From assembly GCA_016194975.1 (NCBI GenBank), contig JACQAM010000025.1:1-64000 (forward strand): DNA of 64,000 bases. The letters run 5' to 3'. The DNA comes from Bacteroidota bacterium. Its GTDB lineage: Bacteria; Bacteroidota; Bacteroidia; Palsa-965. Both the position numbers and the translations under genes were made by a program. The notes under the pieces are model-generated. The model had not been told where the DNA came from and searched no databases. It worked only from the letters and a program-made list of their open reading frames with translations. Positions 2-52,444 of the stretch are shown here, piece by piece. Position 1 is the stretch's first letter, and each line of letters opens with the position of its first letter.

Positions 2-1111
2 ACCCTGCTCACTGCAAGTGCAACTTACTCCCCGGTTCTCTGCAATGGAGGAAATACAGGTAGCGCAACGGTGACCGCTTCCGGTGGAATTACATCTTAT
101 ACTTACAACTGGTCGCCATCCGGAGGAACAAATTCAACTGCCGCTAATTTAACTGCGGGAAGTTATACCTGCACGGTCACTGATGCGAACGGATGTATTA
201 CTACTGCTTCTACTACAGTTACACAGCCAACCGCACTCACTGCAACCGCAACAATGACTCCTGTTCTCTGCAATGGTGGAAATACTGGTAGTGCGGCTGT
301 AACTGCATCAGGCGCAACTCCTGGTTACACTTATTCCTGGTCGCCTTCTGGTGGTACAGGAACAACGGAGCCGAATTTATCAGCAGGTTCTTACACCTGC
401 ACCGTTACTGATGCGAATGGTTGTATCACCACAGCATCAACAACGGTCACTCAACCAACTGCAATTTCGCTCACCACTTCTTTTGTTCAATCTACCTGCG
501 GAAATCCGAATGGATCTGCATCTGTTGTTGCAACAGGAGGAACCGGTGCCTATACTTATTCATGGACTCCATCGGGAGGAACTTCTGCAAACGCAACAGG
601 ATTGTTGGCCGGCAGCTACACGATAACTGTTACTGATGCCAATGGTTGTGTTGCAACACAAACCGTGAATGTGCCCAATGCGGGCTCGCCTACAGCAACG
701 ATCACCGCATCGACTAACGTAAGTTGCTTCGGTGGAAATAACGGAAGTGCAACTGTGACCGGAACAGGCGGAACAACTCCTTATACTTATTCATGGTCGC
801 CTTCCGGTGGAACGGGATCTACAGGTGTAAATCTTATAGCCGGAACTTACACGGCAACAGTTACTGATGCGAATGGTTGTACTTCTATAGCTACAGTAAC
901 AATTACACAACCCACCCTGCTCACTGCAAGTGCAACTTACTCCCCGGTTCTCTGCAATGGAGGAAATACAGGTAGCGCAACGGTGACCGCTTCCGGTGGA
1001 ATTACATCTTATACTTACAACTGGTCGCCATCCGGAGGAACAAATTCAACTGCCTTCTACTACAGTAACCGAACCGACACAGCTTGTGACAAGTGCGTCC
1101 CAGGCAGATGA
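2..1111 (+). CDS. SprB-repeat surface adhesin, upstream fragment (5' end outside window)
   Basis: This frame is open from the window edge and encodes repeats of about 75-80 residues. Each has a YSWSPSGG-like strand and a closing TDANGC motif, the pattern of SprB repeats in large cell-surface adhesins of gliding Bacteroidota. The protein is probably exported and displayed by T9SS, because the downstream fragment carries the matching C-terminal domain. The real frame ends at about 1054. The last codons up to the stop at 1111 (FYYSNRTDTAC...) are out-of-frame reading of repeat DNA. The same protein continues one frame over in the next entry. No start codon is visible. The composition is rich in Thr, Ser, Gly and Asn with paired Cys, normal for the family. 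Function beyond adhesion is not readable. Confidence 0.85.
   Translation, partial: TLLTASATYSPVLCNGGNTGSATVTASGGITSYTYNWSPSGGTNSTAANLTAGSYTCTVTDANGCITTASTTVTQPTALTATATMTPVLCNGGNTGSAAVTASGATPGYTYSWSPSGGTGTTEPNLSAGSYTCTVTDANGCITTASTTVTQPTAISLTTSFVQSTCGNPNGSASVVATGGTGAYTYSWTPSGGTSANATGLLAGSYTITVTDANGCVATQTVNVPNAGSPTATITASTNVSCFGGNNGSATVTGTGGTTPYTYSWSPSGGTGSTGVNLIAGTYTATVTDANGCTSIATVTITQPTLLTASATYSPVLCNGGNTGSATVTASGGITSYTYNWSPSGGTNSTAFYYSNRTDTACDKCVPGR
913..1054 (+). repeat. Second copy of a perfect 142-bp repeat (first copy 1-142)
   Basis: Bases 913-1054 are identical to 1-142, an offset of 912 bp or exactly 304 codons. Identity stops exactly where the adhesin frame breaks. Relative to the first copy, 65 bp (about 143-207) are missing after 1054, and the sequence ACTGC is present at both ends of the missing piece. 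Loss of 65 bp shifts the frame. Confidence 0.9.
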
Positions 1112-3704
1112 ATTGTGTTTCGGAGGAAATAACGCGACAGCAACTGTAACACCTTCGGGAGCAACAGGGCCTTATACTTATTCCTGGTCGCCTTCAGGAC
1201 AGACAGGATCGACAGCTACTGCACTTACCTCACAAGGTTATACCTGCACGATCACCGATGCCAACGGTTGTGCTATAACACAAACATTCAATATCACCCA
1301 ACCTACACTGGTTACAGTTACAACCGCGCAAGTTTCATCCACTTGCGGAAATCCAAACGGAACTGCAACGGCAACACCTTCGGGCGGAACCGGAACCTAT
1401 AATTACTTGTGGTCACCAGGCGGACAAACCACATCAACGATCTCCGCACAGATGGCAGGCACCTATTCTGTAACGGTGACAGATGCAAACGGATGTTCTG
1501 CAAATGGAACTATCACCATCACCAACATGGGATCTCCATCTGCTTCTATTACTTCTGCAACAAATATTCTTTGTAACGGTGCGAATACAGGTGCTGCAAC
1601 AGTTACAGTTGTCGGTGGAACAGGAACGATCACTTATTCATGGACACCGTCTGGCGGAACGAATACAACCGCAAACGGAATTCCAGCAGGAACATATACT
1701 GTGACAGTAACCGATTCGAACGGTTGCCAGGACACTGCACAAGTTACATTGACACAACCTCCATTGCTTACTGCTTCTGCATCGTTCTCACCGGTTCTAT
1801 GCAACGGTGGAAATACCGGAAGTGCAAACGTGATCGCAAATGGTGGAATGCCAGCTTACAGTTATTCCTGGTCACCAACGGGGGGAACTGCTTCAACGGC
1901 GAACGGATTGACCGCTCAGAGTTATACCTGCACAGTAACGGATGCGAATGGTTGCACAACAACTGCATCAACGACTGTAACTGAACCGACACAACTGGTA
2001 ACAACATCCTCACAGGTCGATGAACTCTGCTTCGGTGGAAATACAGGATCTGCCACTGTCAGTCCTTCAGGAGGAACCGGGGCTTATACTTATTCCTGGT
2101 CACCATCCGGCGGATCCGGCGCTTCCGCAACCACGCTCACATCGCAGGGTTATACCTGTACAATCACGGATGCCAATGGTTGTTCTATAACACAACCCTT
2201 CATCATTACTCAGCCAACTCAACTTGTTGTTTCCGCAACCGGTGTCGATGCACACTGCAATCAATCTGACGGATCTGCAACCGCAACCACTGTTGGAGGA
2301 ACAGGCGCATCAACATTCGCATGGACCCCGGCAGGAACAGGTTCTACCATTTCAAATATTCCTTCCGGTACTTATTCTGTGACTGCTACAGATGTGAATG
2401 GTTGCACATCATCAACCACCGTTACCATCAACAATCTGAATGGTGTGAATGCTTCTCTCGGACCTGTCTCTAACGTTTCATGCAATGGCGGATCGAACGG
2501 ATCTGCGAGCATAACTGCGACCGGCGGAAATCCTGCATACACTTATTCATGGACACCAAACGTGAGTGCATCAAATACACTTACTGGCGTTACAGCAGGG
2601 AATTATTCTGTGACGGTAACAGATGCAAACGGATGTACTTCGAATGTTACACTCACTATCACCGAACCACCTGCGCTCGCTGTGATTGCAAGTGCTGCGC
2701 CCCCTGCTGTTTGCGCAGGATCGCAGGTGAGTCTTTCTTCGACCGCTACCGGTGGTGTTCCTGCTTATACAACAACATGGAACCCGGGAAGTATGAATGG
2801 TGCAAATCAGAATGTCACACCTGCTTCTTCTGTCACCTACACTGTAACTGTTGTTGATGTCAATGGATGTTCAGCAACGGATAGTGTAAATGTTACGGTC
2901 TTCCCGATGCCGGTTGCAACTTTCAGCGCGAATATAACTTCAGGTTGCGCGCCGGTATGCGTGAACTTCTCTGATCTTTCTACGATCGGCAATCCTGGAA
3001 ATATTGCAGCATGGACATGGGATTTCGGTGACGGAAATACTTCCACTTCGCAGAATCCTTCACATTGTTATACAAACCCGGGCACATACAATGTAACACT
3101 CACTGTGAAATCTGCAGATGGATGCCAGACAACGATCACGATGACATCTTACATCAATGTGTTTGCAAATCCTGTTGCAGCTTTCGGAATGTCGCCACAA
3201 CCAACTACACTTGTGAATAGTGAAATTTTCTTTACTGATTCATCTACCAATGCATTAAGCTGGCTTTGGAGTTTTGGTGACCTGATGAATTCAACAAGTA
3301 CACTGGAGAATCCGTCATTCACTTATGGAGATGCAACCTGTTACCAGGTATTACTCACTGCAACCAGTTCACAGGGTTGTGTGGATACCGTTTCACATGT
3401 TGTTTGTATAGGTCCTGATGTTTCCATTTTTGTTCCGAATACATTCACACCAAATGGCGATAATCATAACGAAACATTTTTCCCGGTTTGCATTGGAATA
3501 GATCCTGATCATTTCGAAATGTGGATCTACGATCGTTGGGGAAATATGATCTACTATACTGCAGATCTGAATAATGGTTGGGATGGACGTGTGCAGGGAC
3601 ATCCGGACATCGCGCAGATTGATACCTATGTGTGGAAGATCAATGCGAAAGATCTCACTGGTGCAACGCATAATCTGATCGGACACGTTAACCTCATTAA
3701 GTAA
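996..3704 (+). CDS. SprB-repeat adhesin, downstream fragment with PKD and gliding-motility C-terminal domain
   Basis: This is the continuation of the preceding fragment after a frameshift. Meaningful homology starts near 1056 (STTVTEPTQLV). The first 20 or so residues from the ATG at 996 are repeat DNA read in the wrong frame, so this ATG is probably not a true start. From there come more SprB-type repeats, each ending TDANGC, then two PKD-like modules (WTWDFGDGNTS near 3010-3040 and WLWSFGD near 3265-3285). The protein ends with a gliding-motility-associated C-terminal domain (IFVPNTFTPNGD..., YDRWGN, NGWDGR), the type B T9SS sorting signal. It should be exported by Sec and then T9SS and attached at the surface. 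The two fragments are best read as one gene that is broken or misassembled. Confidence 0.85.
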   Translation: MELHLILTTGRHPEEQIQLPSTTVTEPTQLVTSASQADELCFGGNNATATVTPSGATGPYTYSWSPSGQTGSTATALTSQGYTCTITDANGCAITQTFNITQPTLVTVTTAQVSSTCGNPNGTATATPSGGTGTYNYLWSPGGQTTSTISAQMAGTYSVTVTDANGCSANGTITITNMGSPSASITSATNILCNGANTGAATVTVVGGTGTITYSWTPSGGTNTTANGIPAGTYTVTVTDSNGCQDTAQVTLTQPPLLTASASFSPVLCNGGNTGSANVIANGGMPAYSYSWSPTGGTASTANGLTAQSYTCTVTDANGCTTTASTTVTEPTQLVTTSSQVDELCFGGNTGSATVSPSGGTGAYTYSWSPSGGSGASATTLTSQGYTCTITDANGCSITQPFIITQPTQLVVSATGVDAHCNQSDGSATATTVGGTGASTFAWTPAGTGSTISNIPSGTYSVTATDVNGCTSSTTVTINNLNGVNASLGPVSNVSCNGGSNGSASITATGGNPAYTYSWTPNVSASNTLTGVTAGNYSVTVTDANGCTSNVTLTITEPPALAVIASAAPPAVCAGSQVSLSSTATGGVPAYTTTWNPGSMNGANQNVTPASSVTYTVTVVDVNGCSATDSVNVTVFPMPVATFSANITSGCAPVCVNFSDLSTIGNPGNIAAWTWDFGDGNTSTSQNPSHCYTNPGTYNVTLTVKSADGCQTTITMTSYINVFANPVAAFGMSPQPTTLVNSEIFFTDSSTNALSWLWSFGDLMNSTSTLENPSFTYGDATCYQVLLTATSSQGCVDTVSHVVCIGPDVSIFVPNTFTPNGDNHNETFFPVCIGIDPDHFEMWIYDRWGNMIYYTADLNNGWDGRVQGHPDIAQIDTYVWKINAKDLTGATHNLIGHVNLIK

Positions 3705-5590: not shown

Positions 5591-5622
5591 TTTGCAATTC
5601 TTGAATAAACGTTCTATTTTTG
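5591..5622 (+). promoter_or_regulatory. Bacteroidota-type promoter for the second SprB-repeat adhesin
   Basis: A -7 box TATTTTTG lies at 5615-5622 (consensus TAnnTTTG), with TTTG at 5591-5594 as the -33 element and 20 bp between them. Transcription would start near 5625, about 50 bp before the ATG at 5677. The TTG at 5620 lies inside this box, so it is unlikely to be the translation start. Confidence 0.65.
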
Positions 5623-5676
5623 ATTGAGGCAGTAAGTGACGGCAAACCATTAGCTGCTTCTCTAATTCATACCCAC

Positions 5677-8600
5677 ATGAAACACATTACACGGCCCCTG
5701 TTCGTTTCATTGACAATGTTGTTTGGTATTTGCGCCAGAGCGCAATCACCCACAATTTGTCCAATTAACGCCGGCCCCGATCAAACGATCTGTTCTCCTA
5801 ATTGCGCAAATCTCTCAGGAACTTTTGTTACAACCGGTCTCACTACCGGTTATACTGCCAGCACTGTCGCTTACACTCCCGATCCATTCAACGTCGGAAC
5901 TTCACTTGCCCTTGGCGATGATCAGTGGTCTGCTATTATTCCTCTCCCGTTCACTTTTTGCTTTTATGGAACAGCATACAACAATGTCTGTATTGGTTCG
6001 AATGGAATCATCTCTTTCAATACGGCCGGAGCGGGCGGTTATTGTCAATGGCCGATTGGGGCGGCAGTTCCTACCGGCTCTGATCCGATGAACACAATTA
6101 TGGCTCCATGGCAGGATCTTTATCCGCCAGGCGGTGGTCAAATTCGTTACACCACTTACGGAACGGCACCATGTCGCAGATTCGTTGTGAGTTGGTACCA
6201 GGTGCCCATGTATTTTTGCACTACAACTTTGTGTACCCAGCAAATTGCAATGTATGAGACCACGAATGTCATTGATAATTTTATTCAGACAAAACCGCTT
6301 TGTGCTTCTTGGAATGGTGGTAATGCGATTGAAGCAGTTCACAATGCTACAGGAACAGCGGCTGTTGTTCAGGCAGGCCGCAACTATCCCACCCAATGGA
6401 CTACAGTAAATGATGGACGGCGCTGGACTCCGAACGGAGCAGTTAACTATACAGTATCCTGGTATCTTGGAGCAACAGCAATTGCCTCTACAGTTAATGC
6501 TGCAGCCGGAACCGTAACTGCAACTGTTTGCCCGGGATCAACTTCTACTTACACTTTACAGGCAACATATACTAATTGTAATAATACAACCCAAACCGTA
6601 AGCGATCAAATGATCGTGAACGTGAGTGCACTGGTCACTTCTGCCGGGCCGAATCAGAATATCTGCTACGGAGGTTGCGCTACTTTGACCGGGAGCGCTG
6701 CTGGAGCGTTGAGTTATTCCTGGGCATCGCTACCGGGAAATACCAATGTAGGAAATACTGCAACTATTAGTGTTTGTCCAACAGTAACTACAACTTATGT
6801 CGTGACAGCCACAAGTGCGTCATGTTCAGGAACAGATACCGTTCTCGTTAATGTGAGTCCGATGATGACTGCTAGTGCTGGGCCGGATGATTCTATTTGC
6901 AGTGGAGCTTGCACTATTTTAAATGGTAGTGGTGGAGTAAGTTATTCCTGGTCTCCGGCTGCGTCCATTACCGGGCCATCAAACGTAGCAAATCCTCAGG
7001 CCTGCCCCACAGTAACAACTACCTATACCGTCACTGTAACCGATGCGTTGGGATGCATCGGGACCGACCAGGCTACCGTTTATGTTGCGCCCATTCCATT
7101 AGCATTAACTATAACTTCTTCGGATAATACCTGTAATGGTGCATGTAACGGACAAGCTACAGCTAATCCATCCGGTGGCTTTACTCCCTATAGCTATTCC
7201 TGGAGTAATGCGACTACGAATCAAAATGCAACTAATCTGTGTGCCGGTAATTATAACGTCACCGTTACTGATGTTCTTGGGTGCATGGCAACTTCAGCAG
7301 TTACTATAACTCAACCTACTCCTGTTGTCATTCAGTCAACTTCTATTACTACTGCGAATTGCGGACAAAATGATGGTTCAGTAACAATTTCAATTAGTGG
7401 GGGAACTCCGTTTGCCGGTAACGTTTATACAATTCTGTGGCCTGCTTCCGGAAATAGTGCACTAACCGAAAACAATCTCCCTCCGGGCCAGGTTTGCGTT
7501 TATGTTTATGACCAGAACGGATGCGGAGACACATTATGCGTTAATGTTCCCAATACACCAGGTGCAGTTGTCAATATTGTTTCATCGGGCAATGTATCCT
7601 GTTTCAATTCGTGCAATGGTTGGGCAGTTGGGGATGGTGTCGGTGGCACTGCACCGTATAATTATTCTTGGAATACTCTTCCCGTAAGCCAGGTAAATGA
7701 TACTGCATTTAATTTATGTCCGGGTACGTGGATTGTAACAATGACTGATGCAAATGGATGTATGGACACGGCGGCCGTGACAATTACGCAACCCACTTTA
7801 CTTACAAATACGCCAGGGAGTGGAACAACTATCTGTGTTGGACAAAGTGCAAATCTTACTGATGCCGGCAATGGAGGAACTCCGGCTTATAATTATTTCT
7901 GGACCGATGGAACAAATAACTGGACTACTGCAAATATCACCGTATCTCCTCTCGTTACCACCACCTACACAGTTTATGTTACTGATGCAAATGGCTGTCA
8001 GTCTTCGAATCAAACAGTAACAGTCACTGTGCAACCACCTTTGAATGTTAATGCAATTCCGGCCCTGAGCGTTTGCGCTGGATCGCAGGTTAATCTTTCA
8101 GCTGTTGGTTCTGGAGGAAATGGCAATTATACTTATTCCTGGAATCCTGGAAATCTCATTGGGCAAAATGTAAATGTTACAGCAAATGCAACAACTACTT
8201 ATACCGTTAGTGTAAATGATGGATGCACTACTCAACCGGCAACTGATACAGTTACTATCACTGTCAATCCAATGCCTTTGGTTAATATATCTGCAACTTC
8301 ACTTACTTCCGGTTGCCAAACACTGTGTGTAGATTTCCAGAATAACACACCGAATACTTCCTCCATACTTTGGACATTCGGAAATAATCTCGGCACTTCC
8401 ACTTTGAATACCCCTTCTTTCTGTTTTACTTCTGCGGGAAATTATAACGTCAGCGCAACTGTAACTGATAATATTGGTTGCATCGGATCAACTACTCTTT
8501 CAAATTATGTAACAGTATGGCCACTTCCAAATGCCGATTTCAGTGCAAATCCTCAGCCCGCCACCATGCTGAACAATATTGTTGATTTTACAGATCTTTC

Positions 8601-9060
8601 TTCTGGTGGTGTCGTGTCATGGATTTGGAGTTTCGGGTTGGATGATTCTGCATCTGTCTTGCAAAACCCTAGTTATGCTTTTGCAGATTCAGGATATTTT
8701 AATGTTCAATTGATCGTCACCAATACTTTTGGTTGCCAGGATAGTATCACTCTTCCAATCATTGTACAGGAAGATTATGCAATTTATATTCCCAATACTT
8801 TCACACCGAACGGCGATGGTCATAATGATCTTTTCTACCCACAGGGAATGGGAATTAATCCTGACAAATTTTCAATGATGATATTTGATCGCTGGGGGAA
8901 CCTGATATTCAGAACTGATAAATGGATGGATGGCTGGGACGGAACTGTTCAGGGAACTTCAAGAACTTGCCAGATTGATGCCTACGTTTACAAAATTGAT
9001 GTTGTAACTCCTGATGGCTCCCGCCGCGAATATATCGGGCATGTGAACCTGATACGTTAA
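5677..9060 (+). CDS. SprB-repeat adhesin with PKD modules and gliding-motility C-terminal domain
   Basis: A 1127-residue surface protein. The ATG at 5677 is chosen because a signal peptide follows directly (MKHITRPLFVSLTMLFG, cut near ARAQ) and because the promoter lies just upstream of it. After the signal comes a Cys-rich module of about 200 residues (IPLPFTFCFYGTAYNNVCIGSNG, with WTTVNDGRRW near its end) that resembles nidogen-like extracellular domains. Then come SprB-like repeats with TDANGC or TDVLGC ends and two PKD-like modules (ILWTFGNN, WIWSFG). The last 95 residues are the gliding-motility-associated domain (IYIPNTFTPNGDGHND, FDRWGNLIF, MDGWDGT), a type B T9SS signal. Probable role: T9SS-exported adhesin. 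It is intact, unlike its upstream relative. Confidence 0.88.
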   Translation: MKHITRPLFVSLTMLFGICARAQSPTICPINAGPDQTICSPNCANLSGTFVTTGLTTGYTASTVAYTPDPFNVGTSLALGDDQWSAIIPLPFTFCFYGTAYNNVCIGSNGIISFNTAGAGGYCQWPIGAAVPTGSDPMNTIMAPWQDLYPPGGGQIRYTTYGTAPCRRFVVSWYQVPMYFCTTTLCTQQIAMYETTNVIDNFIQTKPLCASWNGGNAIEAVHNATGTAAVVQAGRNYPTQWTTVNDGRRWTPNGAVNYTVSWYLGATAIASTVNAAAGTVTATVCPGSTSTYTLQATYTNCNNTTQTVSDQMIVNVSALVTSAGPNQNICYGGCATLTGSAAGALSYSWASLPGNTNVGNTATISVCPTVTTTYVVTATSASCSGTDTVLVNVSPMMTASAGPDDSICSGACTILNGSGGVSYSWSPAASITGPSNVANPQACPTVTTTYTVTVTDALGCIGTDQATVYVAPIPLALTITSSDNTCNGACNGQATANPSGGFTPYSYSWSNATTNQNATNLCAGNYNVTVTDVLGCMATSAVTITQPTPVVIQSTSITTANCGQNDGSVTISISGGTPFAGNVYTILWPASGNSALTENNLPPGQVCVYVYDQNGCGDTLCVNVPNTPGAVVNIVSSGNVSCFNSCNGWAVGDGVGGTAPYNYSWNTLPVSQVNDTAFNLCPGTWIVTMTDANGCMDTAAVTITQPTLLTNTPGSGTTICVGQSANLTDAGNGGTPAYNYFWTDGTNNWTTANITVSPLVTTTYTVYVTDANGCQSSNQTVTVTVQPPLNVNAIPALSVCAGSQVNLSAVGSGGNGNYTYSWNPGNLIGQNVNVTANATTTYTVSVNDGCTTQPATDTVTITVNPMPLVNISATSLTSGCQTLCVDFQNNTPNTSSILWTFGNNLGTSTLNTPSFCFTSAGNYNVSATVTDNIGCIGSTTLSNYVTVWPLPNADFSANPQPATMLNNIVDFTDLSSGGVVSWIWSFGLDDSASVLQNPSYAFADSGYFNVQLIVTNTFGCQDSITLPIIVQEDYAIYIPNTFTPNGDGHNDLFYPQGMGINPDKFSMMIFDRWGNLIFRTDKWMDGWDGTVQGTSRTCQIDAYVYKIDVVTPDGSRREYIGHVNLIR

Positions 9061-9148: not shown

Positions 9149-12100
9149 ATGAAAAAGATTTACCCCTTTTTTCTGAGTATACTTTCCCTGTCATTTTGCG
9201 GAAACTCTCAGGCTCAAAATAATGTCGGAATAGGAACCACAGTTCCAGATGCATCTTCTATTCTCGAAATGCAATCTACAACTCAGGGTGTACTTGTTCC
9301 CAGGATGACGGCTGTAAATCGTATCGGTATTGCTACTCCTGCTAACGGACTTTTGGTTTACGATCTGGATTCTATGTGCTTTTTTTATTACAAAGCTGGA
9401 ATCTGGACAAACTTGTGCAGAGCCGGTGCTGTTGGTGCAACTGGCCCTGCTGGTTCTGCTGGCTCTAACGGTGCAAATGGAATTAGCTGTTGGGATTTGA
9501 ATGGTAATGGAATAAATGATCCCGCTGAAGATATTAATGGCGATGGTTCATGGGATGCCCAGGACTGTGCAGGTACGGCTGGTCCTGTAGGTGCAGCTGG
9601 TCCGGCGGGAGCGACCGGTGCAACAGGTTTGAATGGAATTCATTGTTGGGATCTTAATGGCAATGGTGTTAACGATCCTGCTGAAGATATTAACAGTGAT
9701 GGATTTTGGAACGCATCAGATTGTGCAGGTGCTACGGGTCCCGCTGGAGCCGCTGGCCCAACTGGGGTTGCTGGCCCTGCAGGTGCGGCTGGTGCTACAG
9801 GTCCCGCTGGTGCGGCTGGCCCAACTGGTACTGCAGGTGCGGTAGGCGCTACTGGCCCTGCCGGAGCTGCTGGTCCTACTGGAGTTGCTGGCCCAACTGG
9901 TCCTGCCGGTACGGTAGGCGCTACTGGACCCGCTGGAGCTGCTGGTCCTACGGGAGTTGCTGGCCCAACTGGTCCTGCTGGTGCGGTAGGCGCTACTGGA
10001 CCTGCCGGGGCTGCTGGTCCTACAGGAGCCGCTGGCCCTACTGGGGTTGCCGGCCCAACTGGTACTGCTGGTGCGGTAGGCGCTACTGGCCCTGCCGGGG
10101 CTGCTGGTCCTACGGGAGCCGCTGGCCCTACTGGTGTTGCCGGCCCAACTGGTCCTGCTGGTGCGGTAGGCGCTACTGGTCCTGCCGGGGCTGCTGGTCC
10201 TACAGGAGTTGCTGGCCCAACTGGGGTTGCCGGCCCAACTGGTACTGCTGGTGCGGTAGGCGCTACTGGTCCTGCCGGGGCTGCTGGTCCTACAGGAGTT
10301 GCTGGCCCTACTGGTGTTGCCGGCCCAACTGGTCCTGCTGGTGCGGTAGGCGCTACTGGCCCTGCCGGTGCTGCTGGTCCTACGGGAGCCGCTGGCCCTA
10401 CTGGTCCTGCCGGTGCGGTAGGTGCTACTGGTCCTGCTGGAGCTGTGGGTGCTACTGGTCCTGCTGGGGCTGTGGGTGCTACTGGTCCTGCTGGGGCTGT
10501 GGGTGCTACTGGTCCTGCTGGGGCTGTGGGTGCTACTGGTCCTGCTGGAGCTGTGGGTGCTACTGGTCCTGCTGGAGCTGTGGGTGCTACTGGTCCTGCT
10601 GGGGCTGTGGGTGCTACTGGTCCTGCTGGAGCTGTGGGTGCTACTGGTCCTGCTGGAGCTGTAGGTGCTACTGGTCCTACGTGGACTCTCGTTGCTCCGA
10701 CAGTAAATGCTAATGGTACAGTTACTGACAATGGAACTGCTGGTTCTGGAGGACCAGTAACTAGTACAGGTGCTTTTTGGATTTGCTCTCCCAATACGGC
10801 GGGAACAAATTCATTGGTCGCCACTGGATTTTTCGGAACATCCTCTAATAATCACGTTGATCTTACCACCAATAATTTGGTACGTGGTCGACTTTCAAAT
10901 CTTGGAGAATTTTTCATTGGTACAACGGCCACTGCCTTACCTGGAGACCTGATGAATTCAGTTGATAATGTTACTTTCCCCTGGGCAGTGAATGGATATT
11001 CTTATCAGAATGGAGGGGGAACATATGGGGCGATCATGGCGGGCACAACTTCATTCGCAGGTGTTCAGGGAGAATATAATTCCACCTCACTTGGTGTTTA
11101 TAATACAGCAGGTACTCGTGGTATTTACGCAGGTAGTGGTACAGGAACAGGTTTCAGAACCTTAGTTGGAACAGGCCCTGAGACTGGCGTTACGGGTTCT
11201 ATTAACACAACTACTTCTACGTATTCATTCGGAGTTTATGGAAATTCTCCTTCAACTGTAAGCCGTACAGGAGGTGTTTTCGGGGATGATGGTGGTTTTG
11301 CCCAAGGCGCAGTAGGTTATTATGCCTCCAATGGATTTGATTATTCCATTTATGGATTCGGTCTGGCATATCAAACCGGAGTTGCCACAGGAAGGTTATC
11401 AAATTCAAACCAAATTCATAATGGAACCTCTGAAAATTGGGAAGGAGTCGTAAATACTCAAATCGGAATGGGAATTTATGGAGGAGTAATGGGAGGTTGG
11501 GTTAGAGGACTTGCATACGGAATGAATGTAAAAGGAAACAGATATTCCCTCTATGTTGATGGATATACATTAACTAATAAACCAATAGCAGAGCTTATTG
11601 ATAAGCAGGATGGCACCGGAAATCGGGCTGTTGCTTACGCTACCACCTCAATGACCTCCGATGTTAGTTCGCGAGGAAAGGGTCAGCTCTCGAGTGGAGA
11701 AATACATATTAATTTTAGTTCAGATTTCAGTTCTGTAATTTCTGATCCTTCTGATTTAGTTATTACTGTTACCCCAACTGGAAATTCGAATGGAGTTTAT
11801 GTAAGCTCGGTTGATGCTACAGGATTTACTGTTAAGGAAAACAACTCCGGCAATTCTAATGTGCAATTTTCCTGGATAGCGGTCGCTACTATTAAAGGCA
11901 ATGAAAACCCTGAAATTCCTTCCGAAGTGCTTTCAACCGATTTTGATGTGAAAATGCAGGGAGTGATGTTTAATGAAAATAATAATACAGATACTCCTCA
12001 GCCACTTTGGTGGGATGGAACTCAGGTTCGTTTTGATGCTCCCCCAGCTAAACAAAAAGATCCGAATATGGTGAATAATCAGCGCATTGATGTTGATGCC

Positions 12101-12226
12101 AATGGTGCTGCAAACAGGCATGAAGCTCCCGCTATACAGAATGACTCTCAAAATCAAGTCATGCCGCAAATGAATAATGGCAATCAACAGGCACCTGGTA
12201 ATTTCAGATCCGGTAATCCGCATTGA
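9149..12226 (+). CDS. Collagen-like exported protein with Cys-bounded calcium-loop modules
   Basis: A 1025-residue protein with a signal peptide ([18 protein letters not shown], cut near SQAQ). Next is the module [20 protein letters not shown] ... GVLVPRM, common at the N-terminus of Bacteroidota tail-fibre-like surface proteins. Two copies of a Cys-bounded loop follow ([19 protein letters not shown]...DC and a close copy), whose Asp/Asn spacing suggests calcium binding. Residues about 194-510 are Gly-X-Y triplets ([16 protein letters not shown]), expected to form a collagen-like triple helix. The remainder is a globular region of about 500 residues with a polar Asn/Gln-rich tail. No T9SS C-terminal domain is visible, so the way it leaves the cell is unclear. 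The next gene but one site downstream is a shorter relative. A structural fibre is likely; the ligand is unknown. Confidence 0.85.
9837..10402 (+). repeat. Higher-order minisatellite in the collagen-like region (72- and 90-bp units)
   Basis: The marker GCGGTAGGCGCTACTGG (first base varying) recurs with spacing 72, 72, then 90 bp four times (starts of the 90-bp series at about 9981, 10071, 10161, 10251 and 10341). All units are multiples of 9 bp, so the Gly-X-Y frame is kept. Copies differ at only a few synonymous or Ala/Val positions, which suggests recent expansion. Confidence 0.85.
10403..10672 (+). repeat. 27-bp tandem repeat, ten copies, coding GPAGAVGAT
   Basis: Ten consecutive 27-bp units start at 10403 and every 27 bp to 10646. 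Nearly all differences are GGA/GGG or GTG/GTA third positions. Copy number can change without breaking the frame, giving length variation of the collagen-like stalk. Confidence 0.92.
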
Positions 12227-40017: not shown

Positions 40018-40269
40018 TGGAGTACGAAATACGAAATCCCGGTAGTGTATCAGTTTGAAAATTCTTAGCGCCTTAGCGTCTTTGCGGTTTAATAAAAGAA
40101 TGGTTTAGGAACCGCGAAGGCGCCAAGGCGCGAAGTTGAATCGGAAAAGAGCAAACTGAGCCACTACGAAATCCCGAATGCGTTCGGAAAAAAGTATCCT
40201 GGAGTAAATAGATTTCGTATTCATCCGCATTACGTAACTTTTAGTAGAATTTTCGTATTTCGTACTCCA
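40018..40269. repeat. TACGAAA heptad palindrome, split by a small mobile element
   Basis: The left arm (from 40018) begins TGGAGTACGAAATACGAA and the right arm ends TTCGTATTTCGTACTCCA at 40269, the base before the O-methyltransferase stop codon. Units TACGAAA repeat at 7-bp phase. The right half also holds ACGTAACTTTTAGTAG, shared with the relatives at 41042-41090 and 45460-45587. A 127-bp element is inserted at 40041 with an 8-bp target duplication. The 280-bp gap here holds no gene. Confidence 0.8.
40041..40167. mobile_element. MITE-like element, copy A (127 bp)
   Basis: Begins GGTAGTGTATCAGTTTG and ends CAAACTGAGCCACTAC. It is flanked by the direct repeat GAAATCCC (40033-40040 and 40168-40175), an 8-bp target duplication. 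The interior is an imperfect long palindrome of 8-bp units (CGCAAAGA/CGCTAAGG type). No reading frame. It is identical to copy B at 52215-52342 in reverse orientation apart from two bases in the left terminus and one terminal base. Confidence 0.88.
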
Positions 40270-52183: not shown

Positions 52184-52444
52184 GGGAAGGATTACAGATA
52201 ATACTGCTATTCTGGGTAGTGGCTCAGTTTGCTCTTTTCCGATTCAACTTCGCGCCTTGGCGCCTTCGCGGTTCCTAAACCATTCTTTTATTAAACCGCA
52301 AAGACGCTAAGGCGCTAAGAATTTTCAAACTGACCCACTACCCTATTCTGAAATAAAAAAGAATTGCTTCTGACAGGGAAATTTTTGCAATTTAACATCC
52401 TGGAAATTTCTTCATTCACCAATCTGTATATCTGTAATCTTCCC
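52184..52444. repeat. GATTACA heptad palindrome, split by a small mobile element
   Basis: The left arm GGGAAGGATTACAGATAATA (from 52184) is complementary to the right arm AATCTGTATATCTGTAATCT with TCCC (52421-52444). The units GATTACA and TCTGTAA are 7 bp. A 128-bp element is inserted between them. The 285-bp gap holds no gene; a near-match -7 box TATCTTTA lies at 52169-52176 (minus strand). Confidence 0.65.
52215..52342. mobile_element. MITE-like element, copy B (128 bp)
   Basis: Begins GGTAGTGGCTCAGTTTG and ends CAAACTGACCCACTACC, flanked by the exact direct repeat CTATTCTG (52207-52214 and 52343-52350). It is the reverse complement of copy A with three differing bases. No reading frame. 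The arms repeat at 8 bp and the whole element can fold into one long imperfect hairpin. Confidence 0.9.

Follow-up and report, generated by a model that had tools for sequence, protein, structure and literature searches.

Does the reading frame of an SprB-repeat gene at the very start of a draft contig break in the organism, or does it break only in the assembly? The window analyzed here is a stretch of 64,000 nucleotides, positions 1 to 64,000 of contig C25 in the draft genome G000 (4.10 Mb in 28 contigs), and its first base is also the first base of the contig. Three explanations had been offered for the break from the letters of the sequence, namely, a real deletion, phase variation, and a collapse of repeats during assembly. 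Our results point to the last of these.

Exact repeat and frame break at the start of the contig

The first 142 bases of the contig, on the forward strand (1 to 142), recur exactly at 913 to 1054 of the same strand, as the initial annotation had stated, and the two copies diverge immediately afterwards, with a G at 143 and a T at 1055. Copy 1 therefore forms the contig terminus, a position that the letters alone could not reveal and that alters how the repeat is to be read, and copy 2 begins 912 bp onward, a distance of four times 228 bp, which is the period at which repeat units recur in this array. The other units of the array are mutually only about 60 to 81% identical, so that an exact identity over 142 bp is far beyond chance.

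The reading frame does break directly after copy 2, again as had been described. The open reading frame at 2 to 1111 (forward strand), which is open at the contig start and encodes five SprB repeats, runs to a stop at 1111, and its last residues, beyond 1054, no longer belong to the frame of the protein. The protein resumes in another frame, within a GTG-start open reading frame at 996 to 3704 whose residues are in register with the repeats from 1056; this remaining part (1056 to 3704, forward strand) contains SprB repeats, PKD domains, and a type B sorting domain of the type IX secretion system (T9SS) (CHU_C/TIGR04131). The units at 953 and 1116 are 163 bp apart, versus 228 bp elsewhere, and 65 bp are therefore missing. 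Correspondingly, the 65-bp stretch that follows copy 1 (143 to 207, forward strand) has no counterpart after copy 2. As 65 is not divisible by 3, register and frame are lost together at the exit from copy 2 (1054/1055, forward strand), where we infer a wrong join.

The loss of 65 bp thus stands, but the proposal that it took place between two ACTGC words does not. The junction reads CAACTGCC|TTCTACTAC, and its counterparts in copy 1 are CAACTGCC|GCTAAT and ACTACTGC|TTCTACTAC. At the junction, one ACTGC word is shifted by one base relative to the other, and direct microhomology amounts to only about 1 bp. A deletion guided by these words was therefore rejected, and the suggestion of a deletion by short homology finds no support at this position. 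A 33-base query that ends at the junction gave no exact match among GTDB contigs. In a protein search, the relatives were mostly metagenome-assembled Bacteroidota, and the best of them had 64% amino acid identity, too distant for a comparison with an orthologous junction.

The lengths of the units also bear on phase variation, in which a frame-changing recombination within the array would switch the adhesin on and off, the off state being the one that was assembled. In form, an array of repeats in which the frame is broken resembles such a switch, but the resemblance goes no further. Both the 228-bp units and the 912-bp distance between the copies are multiples of 3, so that the frame survives when units are gained or lost, and the 65-bp step is not flanked by a repeat of its own. 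We consider phase variation highly improbable.

Repeat lengths and frame breaks elsewhere in the assembly

Exact repeats were surveyed over 1.56 Mb, comprising up to 20 kb at each of the 56 contig ends together with the repeat arrays. Several pairs of contig ends have exactly 141 bp in common. The surveyed sequence contains nine exact repeats of 141 bp, each of them at a contig terminus, while exact pairs lying only in contig interiors reach a maximum of 130 bp; the sole exact pair exceeding 141 bp is the 142-bp repeat described above. Exact overlaps of 141 bp between contig ends point to a de Bruijn graph with k = 141, and because exact repeats pile up at this length, the repeat studied here lies at the k ceiling of the assembly. 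The usual largest k of MEGAHIT is 141, and from this value MEGAHIT is presumably the assembler that was used.

Contig-end overlaps of maxK have been described for MEGAHIT and metaSPAdes where repeats break contigs (PMC10914622). The situation in G000 is alike in that contigs break at repeats and that their terminal k bases (here, k = 141) recur in the assembly. Unlike the overlaps of that study, the terminal sequence of C25 recurs within the same contig, exceeds k by one base, and leads into a join that breaks the frame. Among 20 contig starts of other genomes, no such loop was seen, with the exception of one 79-bp terminal recurrence with a period of 40.

Two further contigs of G000 display the same arrangement. 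On C22, bases 1 to 141 recur 435 bp inside the contig at 436 to 576, and the frame of an Ig-like repeat protein changes at 577. On C4, bases 1 to 116 recur at 963 to 1078, and a small repeat-type gene is broken at 1079. All three contig starts with a long self-recurrence (116 to 142 bp) thus have a frame break exactly at the exit from the inner copy. The automatic frame control could not score C22 and C25, where the downstream frame is open across the junction, and these two were judged from their translations instead. In addition, the last 141 bp of C25 are identical to C4 938 to 1078, and C25 and C4 are probably neighbors in the genome. A further frame break was observed in an adhesin array on C3, roughly 580 bp into the contig, where an exact repeat of 28 bp ends and part of a unit is missing.

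As a control, we examined exact repeats of 63 to 114 bp within coding arrays on C6, C7, C9, and C25, and these lie in open frames of 1,018 to 2,007 amino acids. Adhesin-type genes away from contig ends were unbroken in each of the 12 cases checked from end to end (five on C7, three on C3, and two each on C4 and C11). Adhesin-type genes that are open to the ends of C7, C12, C15, and C20 also have no break, and not all contig ends are therefore affected.

These observations weigh on the possibility that the 65 bp were truly deleted by slippage or recombination between units, either as a fixed change or as a strain variant, with the 142-bp identity reflecting a recent duplication of four units. 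In its favor, the flanks of the junction are otherwise well-formed coding sequence belonging to one array; moreover, a de Bruijn graph normally follows edges that are supported by reads, and some reads may carry the junction. Against it, the length of the repeat coincides with the k ceiling and its first copy opens the contig, two unrelated contigs (C22 and C4) share the coincidence of a contig-terminal repeat and a frame break, and the junction itself has next to no microhomology. We regard a real deletion as unlikely. It is likewise unlikely that some members of the population truly carry the junction, with recombination between the 228-bp units giving rise to coexisting cells with intact and truncated adhesins.

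A proposed origin of the junction

The frame break on C25 is very probably an artefact of assembly, a reading that rests on the pattern of repeats and frames. Among the options of the initial annotation, repeat collapse is the one strongly supported, by the k = 141 ceiling, the position of the repeat at the contig terminus, and the same signature on C22 and C4. In a graph with k = 141, any repeat that reaches about 141 bases is represented by one shared node, and a higher-order repeat of 4 x 228 = 912 bp in the adhesin gene would form a loop. The contig would begin at the shared node (1 to 142), take one turn of the loop, and arrive back at the node (913 to 1054), from which the exit would have been connected at a wrong point with the part of the gene that lies downstream, leaving the register off by 65 bp. 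A plain k = 141 graph should not place the same 142-mer twice in one contig, and a later joining step would therefore be needed to create the join at 1054/1055. This double occurrence of the 142-mer, along with the four unbroken adhesin-type genes at contig ends, counts against an artefact. We infer that the 1054/1055 junction is carried by no real molecule; the organism most likely has an unbroken and longer gene, with further copies of the repeat upstream.

Local assembly errors have been reported from metagenome-assembled genomes, in which wrong numbers of local repeats lead to wrong protein-coding genes (Chen et al. 2020, PMC7111523). The case of C25 resembles these errors in that a wrong copy number in a local repeat would result in an incorrect gene, and differs from them in that they were diagnosed by read mapping, whereas the present case was diagnosed by its pattern only.

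Reading the break as an artefact keeps a false pseudogene and a false claim of phase variation off the record. It also provides a simple test for draft genomes: the length of the contig-end overlaps is obtained, and where a contig-terminal repeat recurs inside the contig, a frame break at that inner copy is distrusted. For repeat-rich adhesin genes near contig ends of G000, lengths and copy numbers should not be interpreted.

Domain content of the gene and repeats nearby

The initial annotation had named the gene product the SprB adhesin, of which the description as an SprB-repeat protein holds and the name SprB is too specific. SprB repeats (PF13573) are found on both sides of the junction, PKD domains in the part downstream of it, and the type B T9SS sorting domain (CHU_C, PF13585, and TIGR04131) at the C terminus; based on these features, the product is assigned as a predicted cell-surface protein with a CTD of type B. 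SprB of Flavobacterium johnsoniae is a 669-kDa gliding adhesin with a type B CTD that is coexpressed with the adjacent sprF (PMC9143113). The protein on C25 is similar to SprB of F. johnsoniae in its SprB repeats and its type B T9SS sorting domain. It differs in its genomic setting, as none of the 21 PorP/SprF-family matches found genome-wide lies on C25 and an adjacent sprF-like partner is thus not seen there, and in that its 5' part is unassembled; about 1,240 amino acids of the protein, which is most likely longer in the organism, are present on C25. SprB-repeat matches number at least 150 in the genome and are distributed over many proteins. The designation SprB-repeat protein is justified, and that of SprB is not.

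An SprB-repeat gene of 757 amino acids lies at the end of C15 and is open to the contig end, and a gene cut at a repeat could have its upstream part here. We do not claim it as the upstream part of the C25 gene, with whose array it shares fewer words than most other arrays do.

Downstream in the window, a second protein with SprB repeats, PKD domains, and a type B T9SS sorting domain is encoded without a break at 5620 to 9060. It is followed at 9149 to 12226 by a protein that carries a long collagen-like repeat of the form G-x-y (GPAGAVGAT type), whose gene contains exact DNA repeats of 64 to 86 bp and retains its open frame. The window also harbors two members of a dispersed repeat family, at 40050 to 40167 and at 52213 to 52342, with exact copies of 113 to 130 bp on C3 and C7 and of 91 to 97 bp on C17, in both orientations.
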